Below, piece by piece: positions 22,104 through 45,601 of a stretch of DNA of 45,601 nt; position 1 is the stretch's first letter, and each line of letters starts with the position of its first letter. A model generated the notes under the pieces. The model was given only the letters and a program-made list of their open reading frames with translations. It made no database searches and had not been told where the DNA came from. This stretch comes from Haloplasma contractile SSD-17B (GTDB lineage: Bacteria > Bacillota_I > Bacilli_A > Haloplasmatales > Haloplasmataceae): contig NZ_AFNU02000016.1 in NCBI RefSeq assembly GCF_000215935.2, positions 1 through 45,601 on the forward strand. The letters run 5' to 3'. The position numbers and the translations under genes are program-made.

Positions 22104-22215
22104 ATTAAACACCTCTTTGAATTTTCATTTTCATTTTCATTTTTGATTATAGCATAAATTTTGGCGAAAAAGGTAATAGAATTCATTGTAATCGGTAACA
22201 GATTTATAAACTAGG

Positions 22216-24627: not shown

Positions 24628-24629
24628 AA

Positions 24630-25772
24630 TTATATCTCCTCTGAAAGTGATGTGATAATCTCTTCAGTTATAAGTAAGACCTTGTCGCCACCTATAAAAG
24701 TAGCGTTGTCAGGTATTCTTACACCATCCTGTACAATTGCCCGACTGATGATACAATTCTTTCCAATAGATACATTTGGCATAACTACAGAGTCGATGAC
24801 TTCACTACCTTTATCAATCAAACCGTGACTTGAAATTACAGAATGATTCACTTTACCTAGCACAATGGTTCCATCACTGACTAAAGAGTTTCTTATCTGT
24901 CCTGACGGAAAGATATGATGAGCTGGCATATTAGGATTCACTGAGTAGATTCGCCAATCTTTATCCTTTAAATTTAACTGTTCATTGGAGTCAATTAAAT
25001 CCATATTTGTTTTCCATAAACTATCGATTGTACCTACATCACGCCAATATCCTTTAAAACGGTATCCATAAACATTCATTTGATGATTTAAGTAATAAGG
25101 GAGCACATCCTTACCAAAATCGAGTTCATCCTGTTCACATATTAACTGTTTCAGCGTTTCCTTTAATCGTCTCCAATTAAAAATATAAATTCCCATTGAT
25201 GCATAGTTACTTTTTGGTTTTTGGGGTTTTTCTTCAAACTCTAAAACACGATTTTGATTATCAAGTTCTAATATTCCAAAGCGATTGGCTTCTTCTTTTG
25301 AAACTTCAACACTTGCGATAGTAACATCTGCATCATTAGCGACGTGTTCATCCAACATCTTTTGGTAATCCATTTTGTAGACATGGTCTCCTGATAGAAT
25401 GAGCACATGATTTGGATTATAGTAATCAATATAATTTCGATGCTGATAAACTGCAGCTGCTGTTCCATTCTGCCATAAAGCATGCTCATGTTTAGACGTA
25501 AAAGGAGGTAGTACAGTGACGCCTCCATTCCCAATATCCAAATCCCAATCTGCACCAATTCCAACATAGGAATTAAGTTCAACTGGTTCATACTGAGTGA
25601 GAACACCTATTGTATCAATCCCACTATTAACACAATTACTTAACGAAAAATCAATCATACGGTATTTTGCTCCAAAAAAAATAGCAGGTTTAGCATTGTT
25701 ATGCGTTAACTCTTTTAATCGAGTTCCTTTACCACCTGCTAATAGTATTGCTATCATTTCTTTACTGACCAT
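24630..25772 (-). CDS. glgC: Glucose-1-phosphate adenylyltransferase
   Basis: This 380-residue GlgC makes ADP-glucose, the glucosyl donor for glycogen. The N-terminal nucleotidyltransferase domain has LLAGGKGTRLKELT (about 10-23) and the substrate segment AKYRMIDFSLSN. ILSGDHVYKMDY holds the catalytic Asp. The C-terminus (about 290-370) is a left-handed beta helix of hexapeptide repeats (GTIVLGKVNHSVIS and similar). The family's length is matched. GGAGTG precedes the ATG, and its stop is two bases before the GlgD-GlgA start. Pairing with a GlgD domain suggests a GlgC/GlgD heterotetramer, as in Gram-positive bacteria. Confidence 0.97.
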   Translation of the reverse strand: MVSKEMIAILLAGGKGTRLKELTHNNAKPAIFFGAKYRMIDFSLSNCVNSGIDTIGVLTQYEPVELNSYVGIGADWDLDIGNGGVTVLPPFTSKHEHALWQNGTAAAVYQHRNYIDYYNPNHVLILSGDHVYKMDYQKMLDEHVANDADVTIASVEVSKEEANRFGILELDNQNRVLEFEEKPQKPKSNYASMGIYIFNWRRLKETLKQLICEQDELDFGKDVLPYYLNHQMNVYGYRFKGYWRDVGTIDSLWKTNMDLIDSNEQLNLKDKDWRIYSVNPNMPAHHIFPSGQIRNSLVSDGTIVLGKVNHSVISSHGLIDKGSEVIDSVVMPNVSIGKNCIISRAIVQDGVRIPDNATFIGGDKVLLITEEIITSLSEEI

Positions 25773-25823
25773 ATAGACACTCCTTATATCTAGATTCCTC
25801 TAATCAATCTCTAATATCATTTC

Positions 25824-25852
25824 ATTATATGTAAGAGACTAGGTCTTTATAA
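25824..25852 (-). promoter_or_regulatory. Candidate glgC promoter
   Basis: A perfect TATAAT on the minus strand (25824-25829) lies 50 bases before the glgC start. The -35 box (TTATAA, 25847-25852, spacer 17) is weak, so activation or another factor may be needed. Confidence 0.4.
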
Positions 25853-25885
25853 GTAGAAAACGTATCCACAAAGTATCTATTATTT

Positions 25886-25935
25886 GGGCTCTGTTAAGAT
25901 AAATCTTAATGTAAGATTATATTTTAACAGAGCCC
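25886..25935. repeat. 50-bp inverted-repeat element between glgB and glgC
   Basis: Perfect 12-bp terminal repeats, GGGCTCTGTTAA and TTAACAGAGCCC, enclose a smaller hairpin, AATCTTA/TAAGATT. No U-tract follows on either strand, so it is not a typical terminator. It could be a miniature mobile or interspersed repeat, or an upstream element of glgC. No transposase is near. Confidence 0.55.
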
Positions 25936-26101
25936 TAATTTTATTCGTCTCCCTTTTGTAATATAACAGAGACAGTTAAATATATGTTTTTAAACCTAAT
26001 CATACTAATATAAGGTTATAATCTTACCTAGTACATATTATGTGAACTTTCTTTTTAAACATAACATTCATCAATATAAATACATTAGCACTAGCTTAAA
26101 C

Positions 26102-27967
26102 TTAATTTTTAAACGTGATATATGAAATAGATAATGGAGCAATAGTTAACGATAAGCATTGATCAAAACCATGAATTCCTTCATTTATTGTTAGAAGGTC
26201 TCCACCATTATACTGGTCTGATCCCCCATAAATACTCTTATCACTATTGATAATTTCAGAATATACGCCAGAATGAGGTACCCCTATTTTATAATCTTGG
26301 TAAACGAGTGGCGTACAGTTCATTACAATAATAACTAAATCCTGATCATTCTTCCCAAATCGAATAAAAGAATAGATACTTTGTTCATTATTATTTGCAT
26401 CTATCCATCTAAAACCATTATGTGAGTGATCGAGTTCATATAAAGCTTTATGACTTCTATACACCCCTATGATATCTTTAACAAATCGGTTTGCACTATT
26501 GTGTGTTGGATAGTCGAAAAGATTCCAATCTAACTGATCATGATCCTTCCATTCATGCATTTGAGCAAACTCGCCACCCATAAATATTAATTTTTTACCT
26601 GGATGGGACATTAAGAACCCCATTAACACGCGATAATTAGCAAACTTTTGCCAATAATCCCCCGGCATTTTTCCTATTAACGAGCCCTTCCCATGTACGA
26701 CTTCATCATGGGAGAATGGTAAAATAAACTGCTCATTGTAGGCATACGACATTCCGAATGTTAAATTATGATGTTTATACTTTCTGTATAGAGGATCTTC
26801 AGTAAAATAATCTAATACATCATTCATCCAACCCATATTCCATTTATAATTGAATCCTAACCCACCTTGAGAGGTCGGTTTTGTTACATTCGGATAGGCT
26901 GTTGAATCTTCAGCAATCATAAGAATATTACTCGAATATTCTTTGACTGATTCATTTAGCATCTTTATAAATGTAATAGCACCTTCATTTGTTCCTTTAC
27001 TCTCATTACCTAACCAATAAATTAAATTCGATACTGCATCGATTCTAAAACCATCTACATGAAAATAATTGATCCAAAATACAGCATTCGAAATCAGAAA
27101 ACTCCGAACCTCATTTCTTCCTAAATCAAAATTTACAGTGCCCCATACTTTATTTTCTCTGACATCATCAAAAGGATATTCAAATGTCGGTTCACCATCA
27201 AAGAGATAAAGTCCATGTGGGTCCTTACAATAGTGCCCAGGTACCCAATCTAAAATAACACCAAGACCATTTTGGTGGCATCTGTCAATAAAATACATTA
27301 AGTCCTTAGGCGTTCCGTAACGACTTGTTGCCGCATAATAACCTGTCCCTTGATATCCCCAAGAACCATCAAACGGATGTTCAATAAGTGGTAAAATTTC
27401 AATATGTGTATATCCCTGATCTTTAACATAAGGAATTAATTCATCGGCCATCTCACCATACGAGTAATAGTTTCCATCATCCTTTTTCTTAAAAGATCCA
27501 AAATGAACTTCATAAATTAACAGTTCTCGATTAGGGTAATTAATTGTTTCTCGTTGGCGTAACCAATCCTGATCATGCCAATCATATCCATCTAAATTGT
27601 AGAGCTTACTTGCTGTATTCGGTCTAGTTTCAGCATGGAAAGCAAATGGATCCGATTTTTCTAAACGTTTGTTCTGAGCTGTAAAAATTTCATACTTATA
27701 GTTATCATATTCACTGACACCCTTTATCTCAATATACCATATTCCCTCATCACTGATTTTTTTCATTTGATGTATTTGACCATTCCATCCATTAAAGTCC
27801 CCGATTACGTTAACCTTTCTCGCATGTGGTGCCCATACAGAAAAAGAGGCACCGATATTATGTCCATCCTGATCATAATTTAAATGTGCCCCAAAATGTT
27901 GATATGCTTCCTTCATTTTCCCACTGTGAAATAAATAACGGTCAAAATCTAATGGCATGTTTACCAT
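26102..27967 (-). CDS. glgB: 1,4-alpha-glucan branching enzyme (GH13)
   Basis: This 621-residue branching enzyme forms alpha-1,6 branches in glycogen. An N-terminal CBM48 domain contains FSVWAPHARKVNVIGDFNGW. The GH13 barrel then shows the nucleophile segment DGFRIDAVSN, the acid/base Glu in LMIAEDST and the transition-state Asp in FSHDEVVHGKGSL. A C-terminal all-beta domain closes the chain. The length is normal for the Gram-positive type. It starts 2 bases after recX and is the third gene of a ugtP-recX-glgB run, not adjacent in transcription to glgC. AAAGGGG lies 11 bases before the chosen ATG. Confidence 0.96.
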   Translation of the reverse strand: MVNMPLDFDRYLFHSGKMKEAYQHFGAHLNYDQDGHNIGASFSVWAPHARKVNVIGDFNGWNGQIHQMKKISDEGIWYIEIKGVSEYDNYKYEIFTAQNKRLEKSDPFAFHAETRPNTASKLYNLDGYDWHDQDWLRQRETINYPNRELLIYEVHFGSFKKKDDGNYYSYGEMADELIPYVKDQGYTHIEILPLIEHPFDGSWGYQGTGYYAATSRYGTPKDLMYFIDRCHQNGLGVILDWVPGHYCKDPHGLYLFDGEPTFEYPFDDVRENKVWGTVNFDLGRNEVRSFLISNAVFWINYFHVDGFRIDAVSNLIYWLGNESKGTNEGAITFIKMLNESVKEYSSNILMIAEDSTAYPNVTKPTSQGGLGFNYKWNMGWMNDVLDYFTEDPLYRKYKHHNLTFGMSYAYNEQFILPFSHDEVVHGKGSLIGKMPGDYWQKFANYRVLMGFLMSHPGKKLIFMGGEFAQMHEWKDHDQLDWNLFDYPTHNSANRFVKDIIGVYRSHKALYELDHSHNGFRWIDANNNEQSIYSFIRFGKNDQDLVIIVMNCTPLVYQDYKIGVPHSGVYSEIINSDKSIYGGSDQYNGGDLLTINEGIHGFDQCLSLTIAPLSISYITFKN

Positions 27968-31004: not shown

Positions 31005-32096
31005 TTATATGGTTGTCTTCGATTCTTTTTTTATTCGTCTTCTAGAACGTCTTTTTGCCACGCTTCTTGACTCTAAACTTTTCTTATAATTCAAACTGAT
31101 TGTTGCTAAAAATCCCATTAGAATAAATAGATAATAGGTAATTAATCTCCATAGCAACATGGCAACAAATAAAACATCTTCCTTAAAAAAAATAGCAAAC
31201 AATGAAACAAATGCAAACTCTGCACCACCTGTTGCACCAGGAGTTGGCGTATATGACATAATCATTTGGATAAACATCATGGTAACAAGCAAATTAAAAA
31301 CATGACCTTTAACCTCTAAACCTAAACCTATAAAAATTAAAATTGGAATAAAGTAAAAAATTAAGTTTCTAATCATATGGAGTGAGATTGTTTTAAACAA
31401 TAACCCCTTATTTTTCTTCAAAATTATGAGTTCCTTATGGAATTCTTCGATAAAATTTGAAAACTTATTAGCCTTATCTTCTAATTTAAATCGCTTCAGC
31501 CAATTAAGTTTTGCGAGTCCAAGCATAATTTTATTGACAATTATATTATAAATGAATTTAGATTCAGCTAGTACGAAAGTAGATAACGTTATAAAAATAT
31601 TCATCCCAAACCCAATAAGAAGGAGATAACCATAATCCGTCTGTTGATTAAAGTAATCATAACGTGTGAAGATTGCAAATATACCAAATAACACAATTGA
31701 AATCGAATAAGTAATAAAGTTCATGATTGCAACACAAGTGGCATCTGACACCTTTGCGCCTCTTGTTCCTAGATAGTATACCTGAAAAGGTTGTCCCCCT
31801 GTTGCAAACGGCGTGATTGAATTAAAGAATTGAGTCGCTAAATTTAACCTGTAGGAGTCTTTAAATTTAATCCCCAAGATTTTAAATTTTGAGAACAGAT
31901 ACAAAACTAATCCCTCTAAAAAAATATAAATGTTAAAAATAGCAAACGCAAGAATCATATACATTAGTTTAATTTTTTTAAAATGTTCCATAATTAAATT
32001 TAAATCTTGCTTGCTCCCAAAGTAAAAATAAATCATAAGAGCAATTGCAAAGATAATTATAATATTTTTTCGATATTTATGAATAAGACCTTTCAC
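31005..32096 (-). CDS. LPG-synthase-TM/UPF0104-type membrane protein (YbhN/AglD family)
   Basis: This 363-residue integral membrane protein has about eight helices. It contains the family signatures FFNSITPFATGGQPFQVYYL and YTPTPGATGGAEFAFVSLFA. These resemble the N-terminal flippase/membrane domain of MprF-type lysylphosphatidylglycerol synthases, without the C-terminal aminoacyltransferase. The C-terminus is a basic tail rich in Arg/Lys. A role in lipid transport or flipping is the family expectation. It starts at GTG 32096, with AGGGGTG upstream, and runs into the YitT gene as an operon pair. A DUF2156 domain like the missing MprF half is encoded separately at 38423. Confidence 0.87.
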   Translation of the reverse strand: MKGLIHKYRKNIIIIFAIALMIYFYFGSKQDLNLIMEHFKKIKLMYMILAFAIFNIYIFLEGLVLYLFSKFKILGIKFKDSYRLNLATQFFNSITPFATGGQPFQVYYLGTRGAKVSDATCVAIMNFITYSISIVLFGIFAIFTRYDYFNQQTDYGYLLLIGFGMNIFITLSTFVLAESKFIYNIIVNKIMLGLAKLNWLKRFKLEDKANKFSNFIEEFHKELIILKKNKGLLFKTISLHMIRNLIFYFIPILIFIGLGLEVKGHVFNLLVTMMFIQMIMSYTPTPGATGGAEFAFVSLFAIFFKEDVLFVAMLLWRLITYYLFILMGFLATISLNYKKSLESRSVAKRRSRRRIKKESKTTI

Positions 32097-32367: not shown

Positions 32368-33591
32368 TTAAACTAAACTTATCGGTTCAACTTCAATTTG
32401 AAGAGTATTTCTTATTGAAACACCGTGTTCAATCGCATCCTGTGACGTATCACCTGTAGCAATTACATAACCATATCGATGCCCCATATGTTCTGGTGCT
32501 TTTAATAGAGTACCTATTCCCGGTTTTATAACCAAGCTCATAAACCCTTTCTGTCTGTTGACTGTTTTTAACCCTTTTATTCTTAATAACAGTCCTTCTT
32601 TTCTTGCGGTTATATGTCCTGTATATATAATGCGTTTCTTGTATGTGTGTTGATTAATATAAACGGGTAGATTTAAATATAAGTTCAAAATTTCTTTTAG
32701 ATAGTTAAATCCATATGCGTGACGAATCATTTGATTCATTGCACTACCTGAAATTCTTGGATTAATCTCAATTACATACGTTCCTTCCTCATTCTGTATG
32801 ATTTCAACATGGAAATGGCCGGACTTTATTGAGAATCTTTCTATGAGTGTGTAAAGAAGCTCGAGATCATGATCATTAATTGGATCGTATGGATTTAGCA
32901 AGTAATCTGTTATGACACCCTGCTTTTTAACCGACCATTGTCTAACCTTACACAAAAATGTGACAACTCCATCTAAAACCATACATTCTAATAAGTATTG
33001 CTTCCCGGTTATACACTTTTCGGCGATCCACTCCTTTTCCTTTTCAATAAGATCAGAATACGATTCTAAATCTTTTTTTTCTTTTATAAAGTATAGATCT
33101 CGCGATGAACTTCCTCGTATTTTTTTTAATACAACCGGCATGTTATAAAGGGTTAACAAATCTTCTTTGTTATGAATCATCTTAAACGGTATATTATATG
33201 GTTTATCTTTTAGTGCATAGCGCGTGTATAACTTATTCTCCATCATAAGAACTGACTTTGAGTTCATTACGTTGTTGTTACAGAAGTAATCCGATAACCG
33301 AGAAGCTATATAAACATACCCATCGACAAAACTTATAATCAATTTTAATGTGTAAGAGTTGAATCGATTGTTAATAAACCCTTTCACTTCATTTAACTGT
33401 TTTAGTTTTTCAAGGAAAAAAATTTCATCCACGTATTTAAACTCTTCCTTACTTTGATAAATACCCTTTCTATCCGTTAGAAGAATAATATGGTATCCCA
33501 TTTCAAATGCAATCTTTAGTGCCTCTCTACTCGACCCCGTGCGGTTTGTATTTATAAATAAAATTGCTTTCTTTTCCTGAATATTCAGCAT
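32368..33591 (-). CDS. ATP-grasp ligase (copy A)
   Basis: This 407-residue ATP-grasp protein belongs to the carboxylate-amine ligase group that also contains dipeptide ligases of the BacD type. After an N-terminal Rossmann-like region (AILFINTNRTGSSREALKIA), the ATP-grasp fold has VVLKKIRGSSSRDLYFI. The metal/ATP residues are in YVIEINPRISGSAMNQM. A C-terminal domain ends GHRYGYVIATGD, where BacD-like and PurK-like proteins have a lid. The substrates are not predictable. It is a diverged paralogue of the protein at 34206 (same GSSREA start, same EINPRISG and GHRYxYVxATG motifs), on its own transcript. Confidence 0.88.
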   Translation of the reverse strand: MLNIQEKKAILFINTNRTGSSREALKIAFEMGYHIILLTDRKGIYQSKEEFKYVDEIFFLEKLKQLNEVKGFINNRFNSYTLKLIISFVDGYVYIASRLSDYFCNNNVMNSKSVLMMENKLYTRYALKDKPYNIPFKMIHNKEDLLTLYNMPVVLKKIRGSSSRDLYFIKEKKDLESYSDLIEKEKEWIAEKCITGKQYLLECMVLDGVVTFLCKVRQWSVKKQGVITDYLLNPYDPINDHDLELLYTLIERFSIKSGHFHVEIIQNEEGTYVIEINPRISGSAMNQMIRHAYGFNYLKEILNLYLNLPVYINQHTYKKRIIYTGHITARKEGLLLRIKGLKTVNRQKGFMSLVIKPGIGTLLKAPEHMGHRYGYVIATGDTSQDAIEHGVSIRNTLQIEVEPISLV

Positions 33592-33721
33592 GATAACCCC
33601 CCCTATATCATATCTACTATAGTATATTTAAAATTCATTAAATTAGTTAATAATTATTTGTGACTGTTTAACTAGGTCATTCATACTATATATTAGTGAC
33701 AAATGATTGAGGTGATTTATC

Positions 33722-34054
33722 ATGTTTATGTTTATGAATTCAAATAAACAAAATGAACCAGAGAAGCAGGAAGAAAGAAACGATGAACGCAATACGGTGA
33801 AACAAAAAGAACGCCCACTTAACCAATTGGTCTACTCTCTTGTTAAAGAACAAGAATCACTGACAAGATTACTAGAAACAGAAGTAGGCAAAAACTTTCA
33901 TTGTTTAAGATACCATGATAACTTCAATGAACTACTAGCTATAAGTGAGAAAATTGAAGAAACGATGAAATTGATTATTAAAAAAGAGGAGATTATCAAT
34001 AAAATTCTAAAAACTATTGCTATATTAAATGCACAGACCTATGATGAGAAATAA
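33722..34054 (+). CDS. Unknown 110-residue charged helical protein
   Basis: The first 35 residues are polar and very rich in Glu, Lys, Arg and Asn. The rest, LVYSLVKEQESLTRLLETEV and KIEETMKLIIKKEEIINKI, reads as long amphipathic helices, possibly a coiled coil. There is no signal peptide or membrane segment. A weak resemblance to FlgN-type chaperones is not supported by any neighbour. GAGGTGA sits six bases before ATG 33722; ATGs 33728 and 33734 lie downstream in frame. It is one of only two + strand genes in the ligase island, between the two ATP-grasp paralogues. Confidence 0.7.
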   Translation: MFMFMNSNKQNEPEKQEERNDERNTVKQKERPLNQLVYSLVKEQESLTRLLETEVGKNFHCLRYHDNFNELLAISEKIEETMKLIIKKEEIINKILKTIAILNAQTYDEK

Positions 34055-34077
34055 GTATAATGGGTTTTTCCTATGAT

Positions 34078-34109
34078 TGCTGATGATTGCTAATATCATC
34101 AGCATTTTT
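34078..34109 (+). terminator. Terminator of the 110-residue protein gene
   Basis: TGCTGATGA (34078-34086) pairs with TCATCAGCA (34096-34104), followed by TTTTT on the + strand. Confidence 0.85.
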
Positions 34110-34139
34110 GCTTGACTTCTTAACAGGCGACTACAACCA

Positions 34140-34171
34140 AAAAAACTCTAGACAATGATCTAGAATTTTTT
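34140..34171 (-). terminator. Terminator of the YheC/D-ATP-grasp operon
   Basis: AAAAACTCTAGA pairs with TCTAGAATTTTT (one G-U in minus-strand RNA), and an A run on the left gives the minus-strand U-tract. It lies 35 bases past the stop of the gene at 34206. Confidence 0.8.
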
Positions 34172-34205
34172 TATCTCTTTATTCAGGCTAAACGAGCCAT
34201 TCAGA

Positions 34206-35438
34206 TTAACTATTTTTTTCATCTTCCTTATCCACTATAAACTCAATTTCCCTAATCGCACTCTTTGCATTCTCTATTGTTTCTACTTCGTGTTCACCTG
34301 TCGCTAAAACATACGCATATCGATGTCCCATTGACCTTGGTAGCATAATGGTATTTCCCTTTCTTGGTTTTACGTATACATGTAGTACCCCTTTAGAGCG
34401 CTTAGCTCTATTCTTTCCTGTTACACGTTCTAACGTTCCTTCTTCCTGTACCGTCGTATATTGTAAGTACACGGGACGTTTAATTTTTGGTCCTAAATCA
34501 TAGTGTTCATTTAATGCAAACTTTAACGTTTCCTCTACTAAATTTAGTCCAAGTCCGGCTTCAATTAATTTATTCATTCCACCACCAGAGATTCTTGGAT
34601 TAATCTCTATTAATTTCCAAGTTCCATTTACATAACGCATTTCAATATGACATGCACCATTTTCCATACCGTGAGCCCTTGTAATCTCCGTAACGACATT
34701 CTTAATTTCTTCATAACTTATTTTTGTCATTTCTACTGCTAAATAATAACCAGTAATAATAAAACGGTCATTAATATGACTAATTTCTTGCTCTACAACT
34801 CCAATAATATTGACGTCTCCATCAACCACAACTACCTCTATAAGGGATTGAGGACCCTCTAAGTACTCTTCAATTATGACCGATTCACCTGGGTATTTTG
34901 ATTTTAAATGATCGAATTTGCTAGTAAATGTATTAAAATCCTCTATTTTATAAACATCCTTAGAGCCAGTAGAACTCGGCGATTTTATAATTCCCGGTAA
35001 AAAATCCTTTAGAGATTCTTTATTATACGTTTGATCCGTATTCAATACTTTAAACATCGGTGCATAAGGTGTGTCACTCATCGCATTTCTAGACTTAACC
35101 TTATTCTCCATTTTGAATACGGCATCAGTTGTAAACCTCCCTAATCCAAAAAAATCAGCTAAACGACACGCCATGTAACAATGTGAATCTACAAAACTTA
35201 TGACAGTTTTAATATCTAGCCCTTTAAATTCAAACTTTTTTATAATTGATTTTAATTCATCATAATCGTCTATATTGCAGAGTTTCATTAAATGGACATC
35301 TGGATATTCTTCTCGTTGACGTATTTGTTTTTCTTTATCAGTAAGTAAAATCGTATAGTACCCCAGACGATCTGCTGCCTTAATTGCCTCCCGGCTAGAA
35401 CCAGATTTCTGGGTACCAATAAAAATAATTGTTTTCAT
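34206..35438 (-). CDS. ATP-grasp ligase (copy B)
   Basis: This 410-residue paralogue of the ATP-grasp enzyme at 32368 starts KTIIFIGTQKSGSSREAIKA. The ATP-binding part contains GIIKSPSSTGSKDVYKI and VIIEEYLEGPQS. The metal-binding strand is KLIEINPRISGGGMNKL, and GHRYAYVLATGEH lies near the C-terminus. Enzymes of this fold activate a carboxylate as an acyl phosphate and join it to an amine. It is encoded 35 bases after the YheC/YheD copy 1 gene and ends at its own terminator. Close linkage to coat-type and Mur-type ligases suggests that it supplies a peptide or amino-acid building block; that is inference. Confidence 0.88.
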   Translation of the reverse strand: MKTIIFIGTQKSGSSREAIKAADRLGYYTILLTDKEKQIRQREEYPDVHLMKLCNIDDYDELKSIIKKFEFKGLDIKTVISFVDSHCYMACRLADFFGLGRFTTDAVFKMENKVKSRNAMSDTPYAPMFKVLNTDQTYNKESLKDFLPGIIKSPSSTGSKDVYKIEDFNTFTSKFDHLKSKYPGESVIIEEYLEGPQSLIEVVVVDGDVNIIGVVEQEISHINDRFIITGYYLAVEMTKISYEEIKNVVTEITRAHGMENGACHIEMRYVNGTWKLIEINPRISGGGMNKLIEAGLGLNLVEETLKFALNEHYDLGPKIKRPVYLQYTTVQEEGTLERVTGKNRAKRSKGVLHVYVKPRKGNTIMLPRSMGHRYAYVLATGEHEVETIENAKSAIREIEFIVDKEDEKNS

Positions 35439-35473
35439 TGGTATACAAACCCCCTTATTTTTAGTTTATGTTT

Positions 35474-36511
35474 CTAACGTTTCTTTGCCAAATATAAACA
35501 GTACTGTATCATATTTTTTACTACATCTAGCTCTAAATAAAATGCAGGTGGACATCCAGGACGCCAATTGACCTCATACACCCAAATTTTCTTCTTCTTA
35601 TCTAACCCTATATCAATTCCAATCTCATCTATTTGTTCATCAAAATACTTCTTTTGAATTTCCTCCATATGACTCGCAAGTTGTAATGAAAATCGCTCTA
35701 AATATTGCTTAACATCATAATACTCATCACCAAACTCCTGTTTTAAAAAAGGTACTAAGTAATTTGTAGCACCTCCAGAATTAATATTTGTTATGATACT
35801 ATCACTTAAATTAATTCTAGGATAAATTGATGTAATCACCCAGTTATTATTGCCATCTTTTTGAATATGAGATCTCACATCATATGAATGTCCAGATTTC
35901 GTTTTACTATTGATATATGGTTGAACTAAGTATAAGTCTTCTTCTATTTTTGACTGTATATAATCGATTAGTTCCTTATAATTTATCTCTCTTTTATTTG
36001 ATCCTAATGATTTTGTATAGTAATCTTCCCCCTGTTCCTCTATAAATGTAATCCCCTCACCCTTATGGCCTTTTACTGGTTTAAACACGATTTTCTGATT
36101 GTGTTCAAGATATCCTAGTACATCCCCTGCTGATTTTACATAACTTGATGGAATTAAGTAATTACTAAACTCGCCTTCTTTCTGAATTCGATTATAAACA
36201 CTCATTTTGTTTCCTATTGAATGTGTTGTGAACGGTATATGTTCTTTTAAACGCGTAATAATTTTCTTAGAACGATTTAACTTGATTGGACTCCCGGCAT
36301 TGTAAATTACATCGGGAAATCGACTTTCTATTTGTTTCCATCCGCCATCTTTGTATATAAACCCGTTTATGACCCTCTTTTTAAAATCAACCATCTTTGG
36401 ACTGAAATACAATAATTCAGACCCCTCAGCTTTTGCCACTGCGGCATAAGCATACGATTTTGTGACCTTTTGAGGACGTTTACGGTGATGTAACATTCCA
36501 ATTAAAGTCAT
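35474..36511 (-). CDS. YheC/YheD-family coat-associated ATP-grasp protein (copy 1)
   Basis: This 345-residue protein of the YheC/YheD family, named for endospore-coat-associated proteins, has the family's N-terminal GMLHHRKRPQKVTKSYAYAA. Its ATP-grasp elements are FKPVKGHKGEGITFIE, YDVRSHIQKDGNN and IGIDIGLDKKKKIWVYEVNW, where the last Glu/Asn pair would hold the metal. It is therefore a likely active ligase, not only a structural coat protein. Its stop is 35 bases before the ATP-grasp copy B start. Copy 2 at 40850 has the same motifs and is paired with a Mur-like ligase. Confidence 0.9.
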   Translation of the reverse strand: MTLIGMLHHRKRPQKVTKSYAYAAVAKAEGSELLYFSPKMVDFKKRVINGFIYKDGGWKQIESRFPDVIYNAGSPIKLNRSKKIITRLKEHIPFTTHSIGNKMSVYNRIQKEGEFSNYLIPSSYVKSAGDVLGYLEHNQKIVFKPVKGHKGEGITFIEEQGEDYYTKSLGSNKREINYKELIDYIQSKIEEDLYLVQPYINSKTKSGHSYDVRSHIQKDGNNNWVITSIYPRINLSDSIITNINSGGATNYLVPFLKQEFGDEYYDVKQYLERFSLQLASHMEEIQKKYFDEQIDEIGIDIGLDKKKKIWVYEVNWRPGCPPAFYLELDVVKNMIQYCLYLAKKR

Positions 36512-36719
36512 ACCGCTACCCCCATTTCTTTCATTCTATAAATTATTTTCTCTATTATAAAATATGTCTACACAAAGATTTAGGTAAGGCATTAAAACTA
36601 GTTTTTTCTAAATAATACACCTTTTGTTTGTTAGCACTTGTACATTGGCTCAACTAAACGACTAAAAAATGGCACACAATGTGTATGACCGTAGTTTCTA
36701 TCTTTTTTTTAAATAAAAG

Positions 36720-36740
36720 AAGTTAGACTTGATCTAACTT
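36720..36740 (-). terminator. Weak terminator after MurF-like copy 1
   Basis: AAGTTAGA (36720-36727) pairs with TCTAACTT (36733-36740). On the minus strand a T-rich stretch follows about 10 bases later. The stem is short. Confidence 0.5.
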
Positions 36741-36750
36741 CCATACTCAT

Positions 36751-38121
36751 TTATTTTTTAATAAAATGGTTCATTATTTTAATCATGGACTTATCAAACA
36801 TTGAGACTTTAAAGAGTACCATCGTATCACTGTCGAGTAAACTCTCTAACGTCTTAACCATTTCATCCTCATTGTACGTATTAAAGATATGTTTAGGATC
36901 CATTCCATTGACTCTGGCTTGTTTCCCTATTTCTCTTGAAAATGCATCCTTTGTTATTAGGTAATCAATGTTATAGTCAATAAGCATCTTTCCAATTTTC
37001 TTGCATTGTTCTTTCGCATGCTCACCAAGATATGCGATATTACCAAGTACAGCGACCTTCTTTTTAGTGTGGGTCTTAAATGCTTCAAAAGCTGCTTTTA
37101 CTGATGTAGGGTTAGAACTCCACGTATCATCGATGATTGTGCTGTCATTTAATCCCTCATGAAATTCTAAGTGTGAGCTAACAGGTTTAAAAGAACGAAG
37201 CATCGTGATCGCCTCAGTTAAATCAATTCCTAATGAATATAAGACAGCTAATGTAGCCAAAGCATTATATACATTGTGTTCGCCAATTCCTGGCACATAA
37301 GCTCTATATTCTTTTTCATTGTGTATAAGGGTAAAGTTCATACCATCTTTTAGATATACGATTTCACTAGCATAAAAATCTGCATTCTCTATAATTCCAA
37401 ATCGTATAATCGAACCTTTAAATGCATTTAAATTTAATTGATTTATATTTTCGTCATCCCCATTAATAATCAGTATACCTTTATATTCGAGTCCAGCTAA
37501 CATTTCGCCTTTTGTTTGGATATAATTCTCTAAAGTCTTACAGCCATTTAAGTGATCGATTCCTATATTTGTTATTACACCTATATTTGGTTTAAAAAAA
37601 TTACAACTATATACAATGTGCCCAGGTTCAGTTATTGCAGTTTCAAATACAGCATAATCTGTTGTCTCATCTAATTCCATTAAATAATCATGATTAAAAC
37701 GAAGAGCATTTTTACTACGGATTGTCCCCTTTACATTATAGCGTTCATTTAGACATTGTTTAATCATTTCTTTAGTGGTAGTCTTACCACAAGTACCTGT
37801 AACAGCCACAGTTTTTATATCAAGGGAGTTTCGATAATAGTCAACAAATCGTTTATAGGCCGCTTCTACATCAACAACGTAAATAAAATAATCATCAACA
37901 TCGTTCATTTCTTTTAATATAGGTTGGTCCGTTATTATGTAACACCCTCTTAAGTGGTTAAATTTATCTGTATTTAACTCCTGTTTTCTATTTAGATGAA
38001 ATATAAGCGTATAATCATTTATCTCCCTAATACTTGTTCCTACATGTTTTATGTTTACTGATTTCATTGGTGCCTCTATATCAAGTTGTAAACAAATATC
38101 TTTTAAGTCTAACGCATTCAT
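36751..38121 (-). CDS. MurF-like Mur ligase (copy 1)
   Basis: This 456-residue Mur-ligase-fold protein is closest to MurF, which adds D-Ala-D-Ala to UDP-MurNAc-tripeptide. It has a P-loop TGTCGKTTTKE (108-118), GVITNIGIDHLNG and TKGEMLAGL. The C-terminal domain has PGIGEHNVYNALATLAVL and AVLGNIAYLGEHAKEQ. MurF's DxYNANP signature is DTWSSNP (332-338) here. The N-terminal ~95 residues, which in MurF bind UDP-MurNAc, keep only a vague IREINDYTLIFHL outline. The acceptor is therefore probably not the normal nucleotide precursor. It is a paralogue of the protein at 39487 and is divergent from the DUF2156 gene. Confidence 0.85.
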   Translation of the reverse strand: MNALDLKDICLQLDIEAPMKSVNIKHVGTSIREINDYTLIFHLNRKQELNTDKFNHLRGCYIITDQPILKEMNDVDDYFIYVVDVEAAYKRFVDYYRNSLDIKTVAVTGTCGKTTTKEMIKQCLNERYNVKGTIRSKNALRFNHDYLMELDETTDYAVFETAITEPGHIVYSCNFFKPNIGVITNIGIDHLNGCKTLENYIQTKGEMLAGLEYKGILIINGDDENINQLNLNAFKGSIIRFGIIENADFYASEIVYLKDGMNFTLIHNEKEYRAYVPGIGEHNVYNALATLAVLYSLGIDLTEAITMLRSFKPVSSHLEFHEGLNDSTIIDDTWSSNPTSVKAAFEAFKTHTKKKVAVLGNIAYLGEHAKEQCKKIGKMLIDYNIDYLITKDAFSREIGKQARVNGMDPKHIFNTYNEDEMVKTLESLLDSDTMVLFKVSMFDKSMIKIMNHFIKK

Positions 38122-38422
38122 TGAATCGTCTCCTTTTTATAAATTTATCTTACTTTAAAATAAATCTTTATTATAAGTATATGATAGGGAAAAAGTTTTG
38201 TTTGGGTAAAATATAAATCCTCACAAATTAGTGATTACTATCTATGATTAATGATCTGAATAATTTATAGATATTAATTATCATAATTCATGCTAAATGT
38301 GTTAACGCCTATAATCGTATTCACTAATTCTAAGTAAACAATGATGAGTATCTATTCGTAGCCCTTAGGTGATACATAGTATAATGTAGATTTGAGAATA
38401 CAGATGAAGAGGGTGATTATAG
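38122..38422. other. 301-base intergenic region between divergent MurF-like and DUF2156 genes
   Basis: A perfect TATAAT at 38380-38385 lies 37 bases before the GTG of the DUF2156 gene, and no good -35 box precedes it. The rest is AT-rich, and no further gene or strong repeat was seen. Confidence 0.5.
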
Positions 38423-39415
38423 GTGGATTGGTTACAAAAATTAGAACAACTAGACGAATATAAGAAGTGGTATCTAGAAGAGTTACAGATTAGTGATAAG
38501 TCGATTTATAATGATTATATTCGTAATACAGAATATCCTGCTAATTGTTGGACACATAGTTTTGACTATCTGTGGGCACATACAAACTCCGATAAGGTAT
38601 ATATATTTAAAGCAAAAGTAGATCACATGTTAGTGACTTTTCTTTTAACTAAACGGGGACGTTTATACTTACCTTGTCTACCATATGGAAAAGGTTCAGC
38701 AGATGAGGTTACGAAAGTGCTTATAAAAGGCGCAGAATTCTGTCACACATTTAATAAAGACAGCAACTATACACACAAGTCTACAGTCATACCACTTAAC
38801 GAAGCACAATTATTATTTTTAAATAAATCAGAACTGTTTAGAGAACATTTTAAAAGTGAACAATTATCTGGACTCGAGCGTCACTACTCTATTCCAAAGT
38901 TAGTTAACTTACAAGGTAAAGACTTTGCTAAAGTACGAAATAAAATTAATAAATTTAATCGAGAATATAAAGATGCAATCATAAGACCTTATAGGGATAG
39001 CGATTTTGATGAGGTAATAAAACTAGGAGAAATCTGGGTAGAAAAGTCTGGTAAAAAATATCGAAAAATATTAGACGGTTTTTATTTTGAACCCATTATT
39101 AACTATCACAAAGAGCTAAACCACATTATATTAGTAATTGTAATAGATGGTAAAATTGTTGGATTAACAACAGCTGGTGTACTACCTACAGGTGAAACGT
39201 GGGGATGCTTAACAAAGTTTATTAAAAGTTACCATGGTATCTCTGAGAAATTAACTATTGAAATGGCAAAAGAACTTCATAGAATTATACCGAGTGCAGT
39301 CTACTTAAATGTCGGTGGAGATTTAGGAAGTAAAGGTTTAGCATTTGCGAAAGAACGGTATAGACCAGTATTGAGTTATAAACGGTATTGTCTGTTTTAT
39401 AAAAAAGAAAAATAG
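38423..39415 (+). CDS. DUF2156 (phosphatidylglycerol lysyltransferase C-terminal-like) protein
   Basis: This 330-residue soluble protein has the two-lobed GNAT fold of DUF2156/MprF catalytic domains. The conserved loop VRNKINKFNREY, the strand IVIDGKIVGLTTAGVL and the closing segment YLNVGGDLGSKGLAFAKERY with RPVLSYKRY are visible. Relatives use aminoacyl-tRNA to decorate lipids, though many DUF2156 proteins are unassigned. There is no membrane domain here. It starts at GTG 38423 with GAGGGTGA upstream. It lies inside the ligase island between the two MurF-like genes, on the opposite strand. A role in the same peptide-linked product is inference. Confidence 0.85.
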   Translation: MDWLQKLEQLDEYKKWYLEELQISDKSIYNDYIRNTEYPANCWTHSFDYLWAHTNSDKVYIFKAKVDHMLVTFLLTKRGRLYLPCLPYGKGSADEVTKVLIKGAEFCHTFNKDSNYTHKSTVIPLNEAQLLFLNKSELFREHFKSEQLSGLERHYSIPKLVNLQGKDFAKVRNKINKFNREYKDAIIRPYRDSDFDEVIKLGEIWVEKSGKKYRKILDGFYFEPIINYHKELNHIILVIVIDGKIVGLTTAGVLPTGETWGCLTKFIKSYHGISEKLTIEMAKELHRIIPSAVYLNVGGDLGSKGLAFAKERYRPVLSYKRYCLFYKKEK

Positions 39416-39436
39416 TTTATACAATGATCAAGTTAA

Positions 39437-39469
39437 AAAAACCATAGTCTCATTTAGACTATGGTTTTT
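39437..39469. terminator. Bidirectional terminator between DUF2156 gene and MurF-like copy 2
   Basis: A perfect 14-bp stem, AAAAACCATAGTCT / AGACTATGGTTTTT, has a five-base loop. A and T runs give U-tracts on both strands between the convergent genes. Confidence 0.92.
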
Positions 39470-39486
39470 CTATCATAAATTCATTA

Positions 39487-40869
39487 TTAATCACTAATAT
39501 ATTTATTCATTATTTTAGTAATGGATTGATCAAACATAGATTTTTTAAATAGTACTATAGAATTAGCATCTAATAACCCCTCTAGGGCAGATTTAACCTG
39601 AGTATTATTCTTACAATGTATGATTCGATCTTCATTCATACCAAGTTCCTCTACTTTTTTAGAGACATTATTAGTAATTGAGCTCTTTGTTATGAGAAAG
39701 TCAATTTTATAGTCAATAATTAATTGTGCTATCTGTTTATAATGCTCAATTGCATAGTCTCCTTGTGAAGGTAGTTTACCTAAAACTACTATTTTAACCT
39801 TTTCTTTTCCCTTATTTGATAATACCTCAAACGCTGCTTTCATTGAGGGCGGGTTAGAGCTCCATGTATCGTCAACAATAATACTATTATTAATTCCATT
39901 ATGAAATTGTAAATGTGACCTTATATGTTTAAACGATGAAAGGTACTCAATAGATTCTTCAAGATCGATTCCTAAAGTATCTAGAACTGAAAGTGCTGCT
40001 AACGCATTATACACATTATGTTCTCCAAAACCAGGTGCGTATGCCTCATATGCCTTAGAGTCATAATGTAAACAAAAAGACATTCCTTCATCTTCATACT
40101 TTATTTGATCTGCAAAAAAATTAGCTTGATCCATTATTCCAAAAGTAATAATAGTGCCTTCATATGGTGAAAAATCCAGTTGTTTTATATTAGTATCATC
40201 ATTATTGATTATTAATGTCCCCTCATAGCCAAGACCTGCTAACATTTCTCCTTTTGTTCGCATGTAATTTTCAAATGTTTTGCAACCACTTAGATGATCC
40301 ATACCAATATTTGTTATAACACCTATAGTAGGTTTGAAATACTCACATCCTAAAATTAGGTTACCTGGATAAGAGACTCCAGTTTCAAATACACCGAATT
40401 CTGTCTCTTCATCAATACTTAATAAATATTCAAGGTTGAATTCTAGAGAGTTTCGACTGCTTTTGGTTGCAGCTACCTTATACTTATTCTCTAATACATG
40501 TTTAATCATTTCTTTTGTTGTTGTTTTTCCACACGTCCCAGTAATCGCTACGACTGGTATATCAAATAGAGCTCGATAATAATTGATAAATGTTGAATAT
40601 GCTTTTTTTACATTTGTAACATAGAGAATATTCCCGGATACTATTGACTGGCTTTTTAGAATGGGTTGGTCAGTTACAATATAGCAATTACTAAGATTAT
40701 TATATTCTTCTACATTTAGTTCATCTTTTTTGTAGATATGAAACACTAACGTGTCATTATTAATTTTTTTTATATTATTTGTCACATTGGTAAACGATAC
40801 ATGCTTAACCTCTTTATATGTATCAATTTTAAATAGCTTAATGATATCTTTAAGATCGATCATTTTCAT
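39487..40869 (-). CDS. MurF-like Mur ligase (copy 2)
   Basis: This 460-residue paralogue of the Mur ligase at 36751 has the same order of motifs: P-loop VVAITGTCGKTTTKEMI, GVITNIGMDHLSG, TKGEMLAGLGYEG, GFGEHNVYNALAALSVL and DDTWSSNPPSMKAAFE. The canonical MurF YNANP is again WSSNP. The N-terminal part is diverged, with NVTNNIKKINNDTLVFHI, so no UDP-contact SR pair is visible. ATG 40869 has AAGGAGG six bases upstream; the open frame continues to 40926 without a site. Its first 20 bases overlap the end of YheC/D copy 2, so the two are translationally coupled. It likely joins an amino acid or peptide to an unknown carboxylate. Confidence 0.86.
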   Translation of the reverse strand: MKMIDLKDIIKLFKIDTYKEVKHVSFTNVTNNIKKINNDTLVFHIYKKDELNVEEYNNLSNCYIVTDQPILKSQSIVSGNILYVTNVKKAYSTFINYYRALFDIPVVAITGTCGKTTTKEMIKHVLENKYKVAATKSSRNSLEFNLEYLLSIDEETEFGVFETGVSYPGNLILGCEYFKPTIGVITNIGMDHLSGCKTFENYMRTKGEMLAGLGYEGTLIINNDDTNIKQLDFSPYEGTIITFGIMDQANFFADQIKYEDEGMSFCLHYDSKAYEAYAPGFGEHNVYNALAALSVLDTLGIDLEESIEYLSSFKHIRSHLQFHNGINNSIIVDDTWSSNPPSMKAAFEVLSNKGKEKVKIVVLGKLPSQGDYAIEHYKQIAQLIIDYKIDFLITKSSITNNVSKKVEELGMNEDRIIHCKNNTQVKSALEGLLDANSIVLFKKSMFDQSITKIMNKYISD

Positions 40870-41902
40870 GAGTATCCTCCTTTCTAGAATGGTTTTTGGC
40901 AATATAATTTGCGTACGAAACAGCAAGTTTAGATGCCTTTTCTTCTAGGTATAAGTGACCCGGTCGCCAATTTATTTCATAAATCCATATGTTGTGATCT
41001 GAGTCAATTCCTACATCAATTCCTAATTCATCGAATGAATGATCATATAATGTATCAAAATGGTCAGCAAATTGAATCGCAAATACTTCTAAATAACGTT
41101 TTATATTGAAGTATTCCTCGCCAAACTCCTTGTACAGAAACTTCTTAACACTAGTCATCTGTCCTCCTTGACCTAAATTACTTGTAATTTTATCTCGCAA
41201 ACCAATCTTCGGATACACACTAGTGTTTTGCCATTTTCCTTCTCCACCTTTTTGGATGTGTAGTCTAATATCATAAGGTTCACCAGTCTTACGCCTACAT
41301 TCAATATATTTTTGCATGAGCATCTTCTGTTCCTTTAATAATTTACTCAGATAATCATAAAGTTCTATTCGATCTATGTTTTGTGTTTGTTCATTTTCAA
41401 TCACTTTAAAAAAATGATCTAACTTTTCAATGTATAATACTTTATTACCGTGATGCCCTGAAATCGGCTTTACTATGATTTTATTGTATTTATTTAAGAA
41501 CGTTAATACATCAACCGGTTTCTTAATCTTCTCATAGGGTATTAAGTGTTTTGTAAACTCCTTCCCATTCTTTAATCGATTATATACAGAAAGTTTAGTC
41601 CCTACCGGAAAACTCGTGAATGGAATCAATTCTTTCAATTTTAGATATATTTCTGTCTGCTTCTTATTCTTAGATAATGGGCCAACAGGGTTTATAATCA
41701 CATCTGGAAATGAATATTCCTTTTCGATCCACACTCCATTTTTATATGTAAGACCATTAATAATTTGGTTATCAAAGTCAACACGTTTTGAGCAAAAGTA
41801 GAAAAATTCTATTCCTTCCATTTTTGCATGTGATGCATATGAATAAGATCGTCTCACTTTTTCTGGATCTTTTCGGTAATGAAACATACCAATAGTAGCC
41901 AT
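40850..41902 (-). CDS. YheC/YheD-family coat-associated ATP-grasp protein (copy 2)
   Basis: This 350-residue family member is paralogous to the protein at 35474. It begins ATIGMFHYRKDPEKVRRSYS. The ATP-grasp signatures are IIVKPISGHHGNKVLYIEK, YDIRLHIQKGGEGKWQ and IDVGIDSDHNIWIYEINWRP, and the metal-binding Glu/Asn are present. AAGGAGGG precedes the ATG. It overlaps the MurF-like copy 2 gene at its end, forming a two-gene unit. The unit resembles a split version of the ATP-grasp plus Mur-ligase architecture found in cyanophycin synthetase. That resemblance is in domain content only; I do not claim the same product. Confidence 0.9.
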   Translation of the reverse strand: MATIGMFHYRKDPEKVRRSYSYASHAKMEGIEFFYFCSKRVDFDNQIINGLTYKNGVWIEKEYSFPDVIINPVGPLSKNKKQTEIYLKLKELIPFTSFPVGTKLSVYNRLKNGKEFTKHLIPYEKIKKPVDVLTFLNKYNKIIVKPISGHHGNKVLYIEKLDHFFKVIENEQTQNIDRIELYDYLSKLLKEQKMLMQKYIECRRKTGEPYDIRLHIQKGGEGKWQNTSVYPKIGLRDKITSNLGQGGQMTSVKKFLYKEFGEEYFNIKRYLEVFAIQFADHFDTLYDHSFDELGIDVGIDSDHNIWIYEINWRPGHLYLEEKASKLAVSYANYIAKNHSRKEDTHENDRS

Positions 41903-42095
41903 GATATCCCTCCTTTTGCAAAATGTACTGTAATCCTTATTATTAGAATATGTATACCGGTTTTAAATGTATAGGTATTTAGTGGCTTTAATTAAAAGTG
42001 TTTTTTTGTTTAGTTACTATCTAGACATGAGACCTATTGATTTAAATTGTTATGGTAAGAAGTATATATACGTATACTCAAATTTTAAAGCAATA

Positions 42096-45142: not shown

Positions 45143-45601
45143 TTACTGGTTCGTCTTGTTACTACTTCTATAACGTTGTGCAGCATTGCGACTTTCTTGT
45201 CTAGCTGCTTTTGACATACTTGATGCACCAAATCCTGTTCCGAACTCCTGACTATATTGACCTTGCATAGCACCTGCTTGTCGTGAGGTCATTGAGTTTT
45301 GGTTTGGTGTGTAGTTTCTCATTTGCTGTGCTGCTTGTTTACTATTTTGTTGTTCCATTTGAGACATAGCACCGAATCCTGTTCCGAATTCTTGGGAATA
45401 GTTAGACTGACCTGGTGTTCCTTTATATGCATTTTGAGCTGCTTTTGTTCCACTCTTTGCTTCTTGTCCCATAGCATTATATCCTCTTTTTGCATATCCT
45501 GTAGCATATTCAGTCATGTAGTTCGGAGTTTGATTTTGTCCTGATGTTGGTAAATAGTTACTAGCTCCACGTGCATAACTTCTCATTTGTTGTGCTGCAT
45601 T
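45143..45601 (-). CDS. Gamma-type small acid-soluble spore protein-like repeat protein (5' end outside window)
   Basis: 152 residues are visible. The frame is open through the right edge (NAAQQMRSYAR before the internal Met at 45586), and AAQQMR recurs inside the protein, so the real start lies outside. The chain is a series of imperfect repeats: TEYATGYAKRG, YSQEFGTGFGAMSQ and YSQEFGTGFGASSM, each followed by a Gln/Ala/Asn-rich linker ending in AAQxxR. The sequence is low in hydrophobics and rich in Gln, Asn, Ser and Gly, as in gamma-type SASPs that serve as amino-acid stores in spores. Mature gamma-SASPs are shorter (about 80-100 residues). Identification is by repeat pattern, so confidence is moderate. 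Confidence 0.7.
   Translation of the reverse strand, partial: NAAQQMRSYARGASNYLPTSGQNQTPNYMTEYATGYAKRGYNAMGQEAKSGTKAAQNAYKGTPGQSNYSQEFGTGFGAMSQMEQQNSKQAAQQMRNYTPNQNSMTSRQAGAMQGQYSQEFGTGFGASSMSKAARQESRNAAQRYRSSNKTNQ

Follow-up and report, generated by a model that had tools for sequence, protein, structure and literature searches.

The 45,601-nucleotide window analysed here (positions 1 to 45,601 of contig NZ_AFNU02000016.1 of Haloplasma contractile SSD-17B, to which all coordinates without a locus name refer) holds, at 32368-41902, an island of genes for amide-bond-forming enzymes: two ATP-grasp proteins of the L-amino-acid-ligase (LAL) type, two YheC/YheD-family (YheC/D, YheCD) ATP-grasp proteins, two MurF-like ligases and one DUF2156 (LPG_synthase_C) protein. 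We propose, at a probability of about one half, that this gene cassette and its counterparts in related genomes carry out a sporulation-specific, ribosome-independent amide ligation in the sigma-K-stage mother cell, which would put a short peptide or polyamide on a spore-coat acceptor. Slightly more tentatively, we suggest that the LAL-type enzyme, a repurposed MurF and YheC/D form an undescribed pathway that builds this non-ribosomal material on the coat under sigma-K control; a preliminary description of this DNA knew of no system with the same gene set, and our paper searches, which did not cover the 2009 amidoligase survey, found none either.

Recurrence of the cassette in related genomes

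Profile searches (cut-offs in bits: PF14398 26.8, LAL_C2 29.4, LPG_synthase_C 27.5, TIGR01143 288.6) found all seven enzymes within 10 kb, as the preliminary description had reported, and every YheCD, LAL_C2 and WSSNP-type MurF (i.e. with WSS in place of the YNA of the canonical YNANP motif, as in 82-94% of the set) of the 3.4 Mb genome (G000) sits inside the island. The island also contains a gene for a 110-amino-acid (aa) protein, which that description had not counted. Within a class sample of 395 genomes, WSSNP-type MurF occurs in 14, from five families (f1, which includes H. contractile, f3, f5, f11 and f16), all of which also carry YheCD (19/395 overall; hypergeometric p = 6e-22) and encode SpoIVA (115/395 overall; p = 1.7e-8), although the genomes are related and these p-values, uncorrected for kinship, overstate independence. 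Sporulation sigma factors of the sigma-E/K family were present in 13/13 genomes tested. The homologues are hence not randomly scattered among relatives, a pattern that the preliminary description had named as fatal to the idea of an island.

Cassette loci were read in G001, G003, G004 and G006 (family f1), in G028 (two loci) and G021, and further in G100, G182, G217, G265, G062 and G176. At every locus with enough flank MurF adjoins both YheCD and a LAL-type ATP-grasp gene (the exception, L043, lies at a contig end), with gene order and orientation rearranged among relatives. The conserved core across the five families is the triad of LAL-type ATP-grasp, YheCD and MurF, of which YheC/D and MurF had been envisaged as a possible elongation unit. 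The proposal of a joint pathway stands in so far as a co-inherited, sporulation-linked amide-ligase unit is concerned; the DUF2156 gene, which had been counted in, is optional and among cassettes confined to family f1. MurFb and Yhe2 are co-inherited, as judged from trees that group the same genomes together, and no YheCD-MurF fusion was found among the long YheCD frames. In relatives the cassette is flanked by a hydroxyisobutyrate-dehydrogenase-like gene and HPr on one side and by a DagK-like gene on the other, whereas the equivalent site of H. contractile (contig 10) holds Tyr-rich coat-like proteins and lacks the cassette, so that the latter has moved or been kept as a block.

Outside these loci, the matches in Clostridia (245 genomes) were rejected as canonical-level (at most 300 bits, as compared to 550-735 for full-length WSSNP-type proteins), as were those in G268 and G378 (~255 bits), which are canonical MurFs with neither YheCD nor LAL adjoining. 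Several variants were recorded: a decaying cassette with YheCD and a truncated MurF (G134, L202:7468-8762), a third Mur ligase, less similar than the other two, that separates Yhe1 from the DagK-like gene (G006, L039:7692-9110), a 977-aa fusion of a phiEco32-type COOH-NH2 ligase domain (PF14395) with a YheC/D ATP-grasp (G005, L192:8113-11043), and five YheC/D genes in tandem in Paenibacillus piri (G528, contig 1, 764680-770466). Downstream of MurF, family f16 has a conserved protein of 45-56 aa whose core is hydrophobic and whose tail is acidic (L151:10654-10818, L152:5669-5836 and L153:8919-9053).

Ligase families and the non-canonical MurF

The two MurF-like proteins of the island have the Mur ligase fold with an intact P-loop and active-site Lys, Asp, Asn and His (MurFa model: predicted local distance difference test (pLDDT) score 88.5; best PDB match MurF 4qf5, template modelling (TM) score 0.78), and nevertheless score 237.6 and 237.1 bits on TIGR01143, below its curated cut-off. 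The 17 WSSNP proteins branch as a single clade (support 100) when placed in a tree alongside canonical MurFs. By comparison with 74 canonical MurFs (the matches listed when genome contigs were scanned with a MurF alignment), they have retained the P-loop, N138, E160, H190, K204 (presumed to be carbamylated), H282, N286, D332 and K438, whereas most of the remaining invariant residues are replaced: the N-domain D/R, G and D.H, the NN..G.P motif, R317 (by H), YNA (by WSS), E364, H373 and R441. Since these lost residues are those of the canonical substrate side, the substrate has presumably changed, and we infer an acceptor other than UDP-N-acetylmuramoyl(MurNAc)-tripeptide.

The other MurF of the genome adjoins Ddl on contig 25 (L049:4473-6080; similar L040:7319-8914) and differs in that hydrophobic segments, which probably lie in the membrane, take the place of the N-terminal substrate domain; many genomes of this class contain related frames of 530-550 aa. 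A housekeeping wall role for the island proteins is unlikely given this second MurF beside Ddl, which is the only type in sampled relatives without the cassette. MurFa and MurFb thus look like active Mur ligases with an improbable part in the vegetative wall, and, as far as sequence can tell, they are not the ordinary wall enzymes that the preliminary description had kept in view. The canonical module offers the closest parallel, as there too the product of an ATP-grasp enzyme is attached by a Mur ligase to the carboxylate of an acceptor, and MurF is nearest in both fold and sequence; the cassette differs by the separate clade of its MurF (without YNANP and most canonical substrate-side residues), its LAL-type ATP-grasp partner, the added YheCD and its sigma-K-like promoters. 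Cyanophycin synthetase (CphA) likewise combines an ATP-grasp with a module akin to the Mur ligases MurE and MurF and makes a non-ribosomal polyamide (PMC11915815), whereas the cassette enzymes are separate, unfused genes of other ATP-grasp families, and the scores on the CphA model are 78 and 71 bits (cut-off 850). Archaeal pseudomurein clusters also group Mur ligases with an ATP-grasp ligase, yet involve other families and organisms, the cassette being under predicted sporulation control.

ATPg1 and ATPg2 (32% identity) score 51.5 and 67.6 bits on LAL_C2; the EINPR metal-binding motif is conserved in LAL-type proteins, and the divergent ATPg1 retains it within EINPRISGS. The best solved relative of the LAL-type profile is the L-amino acid ligase BL00235 (3vot), which, together with BacD, shares the ATP-grasp plus LAL_C2 architecture and differs in that the cassette members are embedded with MurF and YheCD in a sporulation set. 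The metal/ATP motif of YheCD is likewise conserved (EVNWRPG / EINWRPG). The YheCD profile detected no relative by sequence among solved structures, and the Yhe1 model (pLDDT 90.2) has the poly-glutamate synthetase RimK (5zct) as its best PDB fold match, with RimK/LysX/ArgX matches at TM 0.60-0.71, and also matches Ddl and graspetide ligases. On this modelled fold RimK/LysX/ArgX would be the nearest solved enzymes, although no LysW-like carrier gene was seen. Across 12-17 divergent members, each of the three ligase families has kept its catalytic residues.

Predicted sporulation promoters and layout of the island

The regions upstream of cassette genes and of their neighbours were scored with five commonly known sigma consensus patterns. 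That of sigma-K alone stood out in the cassette genes (p = 3e-8), the sigma-E pattern was weakly enriched, and those of sigma-A, F and G were not enriched (sigma-A was lower there than in the neighbours). The -10 element CATAnnnTA precedes 29 of the 43 cassette units as compared to 11 of 105 other genes (p = 9e-12; mean of dinucleotide shuffles 6.1), and the full pattern (AC-N15-17-CATAnnnTA) 12 and one, respectively, the sole non-cassette match being the 110-aa gene inside the island. Without any -35 being assumed, C occupies -17 in 28/44 aligned sites (background 17%; p = 4e-12). Loci fetched later, outside the first count, gave a sigma-K-like -10 in 9/11 cassette versus 7/56 other cases (p = 1e-5), and MurFa orthologues have the exact -10 CATATACTA. 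By consensus match, cassette genes are therefore preceded by the -35 (AC) and -10 (CATAnnnTA) elements of the sigma-K regulon at the correct spacing, which agrees with that reported for sigma-K promoters in B. subtilis (PMC517825). Mother-cell sporulation control of the PF14398 genes is predicted in silico from sigma-K-like promoters and co-occurrence with SpoIVA. The B. subtilis proteins of this family are also under sporulation control, with the difference that yheC and yheD depend on sigma-E, with SpoIIID raising their expression (PMC517825), and that no adjoining LAL or MurF has been described for them. Taken together, sequence comparisons support well both the sporulation control of the cassette and its ligase chemistry.

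Table 1. Genes and predicted promoter elements of the island (window coordinates)
Feature	Position	Strand	Remarks
ATPg1, L-amino-acid-ligase-type ATP-grasp, divergent paralogue	32368..33591	-	ATP-grasp_3 + LAL_C2
Sigma-K-like promoter ACTGTTTAACTAGGTCATTCATACTATA ahead of 110-aa gene	33663..33690	+	
110-aa hydrophilic protein, no family assigned	33722..34054	+	possible coat protein
ATPg2, L-amino-acid-ligase-type ATP-grasp	34206..35438	-	conserved partner of YheCD/MurF
Yhe1, YheC/D ATP-grasp, RimK/LysX-like fold	35474..36511	-	PF14398, 205 bits
Sigma-K-like promoter ACCTAAATCTTTGTGTAGACATATTTTA ahead of Yhe1-ATPg2	36558..36585	-	
MurFa, WSSNP-type MurF-like ligase	36751..38121	-	
Sigma-K-like promoter AAACAAAACTTTTTCCCTATCATATACTT ahead of MurFa	38175..38203	-	near consensus, one -10 mismatch
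Sigma-K-like -10 CATAGTATA ahead of DUF2156	38375..38383	+	
DUF2156 / LPG_synthase_C, GNAT-type aminoacyl-transferase-like	38423..39415	+	PF09924; accessory specific to family f1
MurFb, WSSNP-type MurF-like ligase	39487..40869	-	start ATG at 40869
Yhe2, YheC/D ATP-grasp	40850..41902	-	PF14398, 196 bits; co-inherited with MurFb
Sigma-K-like promoter ACATTTAAAACCGGTATACATATTCTA ahead of Yhe2-MurFb	41944..41970	-	

The start of MurFb is given as corrected (Table 1): it has a Shine-Dalgarno sequence (AAGGAGG) and a 20-bp overlap with Yhe2, and because both the start and this good ribosome-binding site fall inside the end of Yhe2, the pair is probably translationally coupled. The DUF2156 protein (330 aa, LPG_synthase_C at 61.2 bits) resembles MprF and lysyl-phosphatidylglycerol (LPG) synthases in this domain and differs from them in having no fused flippase domain and no membrane domain match; LPG_synthase_TM is encoded by a gene of its own (31005-32096). 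Clustering of small open reading frames gave no homologue of the 110-aa protein in the loci read. Elsewhere in the window are a glycogen operon not far from the island (19680-27967) and, at 45143-45586, a 147-aa protein without a Pfam match whose YSQEFGTGFG repeats are reminiscent of gamma-type small acid-soluble spore proteins; a glycogen operon is also directly adjoined by a lone YheCD gene in G028 (L198:7587-16000).

Family f1 cassettes are bordered by small Tyr/Pro-rich coat-like proteins (RFLPFLAGxAITAPxW...GVVGSPYxYYYGRP; L039:10237-10533, L041:13996-14274, L042:2033-2290, L195:10137-10457, L197:5407-5694 and L203:1513-1866), relatives of which occur on contig 10 of H. contractile (L209:6857-8850). 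Several of their genes carry sigma-K-like promoters, and the proteins are possible substrates of the cassette. Apart from such family-specific coat-like proteins, the small-frame clustering found no peptide substrate common to the cassettes. Directly upstream of a YheCD-LAL pair in G005 lies a PGA_cap (CapA-like) gene that has a sigma-K-like -10 (L193:9088-10101); this single case hints at an anionic, poly-glutamate-like polyamide as product.

A pathway model and its alternatives

We envisage that the LAL-type ATP-grasp would activate an amino acid as acyl phosphate and join a second one to it, as its family and the L-amino acid ligase as nearest solved relative suggest. The WSSNP-type MurF would then activate an acceptor carboxylate (on something other than UDP-MurNAc-tripeptide) and add the LAL-made unit to it, as MurF does with the Ddl-made dipeptide; here the conserved residues argue for the ligase chemistry and the lost ones for a changed acceptor. 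YheC/D, as a RimK-like ligase, may add or extend amino acids, either on this product or on a coat protein, as its fold and the YheD shell of B. subtilis spores suggest. An additional amino acid may, in family f1 alone, be transferred from tRNA by the DUF2156 protein. Step order, acceptor, product and location all belong to this model. For the acceptor, the spore coat is our first choice, held with evenly balanced confidence because B. subtilis has YheD in its spore coat, because of the sigma-K timing, and because coat-like proteins border the f1 loci.

The proteins could instead serve the cortex, the MurF-like and LAL-type enzymes replacing MurF and Ddl in sporulation to give a modified stem peptide or cross-bridge to which YheC/D adds a side amino acid. 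The chemistry and pairing would be those of the Ddl and MurF found side by side in this genome (L049), MurF is the closest fold, and mother-cell timing suits cortex synthesis; we nonetheless consider this unlikely, as residues invariant in the 74 canonical MurFs are replaced, most SpoIVA-positive genomes lack the cassette, and the LAL-type proteins have an L-amino acid ligase, and not Ddl, as their nearest relative. No less doubtful is a diffusible sporulation product (a small peptide, spore solute or antimicrobial) that is not attached to the coat: BL00235 and BacD do make free dipeptides, and among the genes expressed late in the mother cell are those of small-molecule pathways, for instance of dipicolinate, but the loci read have no transporter or resistance gene in common, in B. 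subtilis the YheD family is represented by a spore-shell protein, and the f1 loci have their coat-like borders. A mainly structural role of the ligases in the coat, in which catalysis is of minor importance or has been lost, would fit the self-association of YheD, which coats the spore without known activity (PMC7911427), and is made very improbable by the conservation of catalytic residues in all three families. A chance adjoining of unrelated housekeeping genes, each family being known singly, can practically be dismissed in view of the recurrence in five families, the congruent trees and the common promoter type.

Several points weigh against the proposed coat-directed ligation under sigma-K. 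Besides the kinship behind the association p-values, the promoter assignment is a match to the B. subtilis consensus, and sigma-E control of some cassette units is possible because the -10 elements of sigma-E and sigma-K are alike. MurF is not obligatory, given that LAL-YheCD pairs without it occur in G002, G005, G009, G021 and at a second locus of G003 (among the loci with such pairs are L193, L195, L196, L197 and L200). No dedicated carrier, exporter or acceptor gene common to all cassettes was seen in the loci read, and substrate, product, location and expression are predicted from the genes.

For two decades YheC and YheD have been on record as proteins of sporulation and of the coat with no function assigned, YheD being known to self-associate and to form a SpoIVA-dependent shell round the spore (PMC7911427). 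The conserved, operon-scale link of YheC/D to a LAL-type enzyme and a repurposed MurF provides a concrete, testable chemistry, and the proposed pathway, if true, would give these coat proteins their first biochemical role. The same link points to peptide or polyamide of non-ribosomal origin in some spore coats, which would have consequences for the resistance, adhesion and germination of spore formers.

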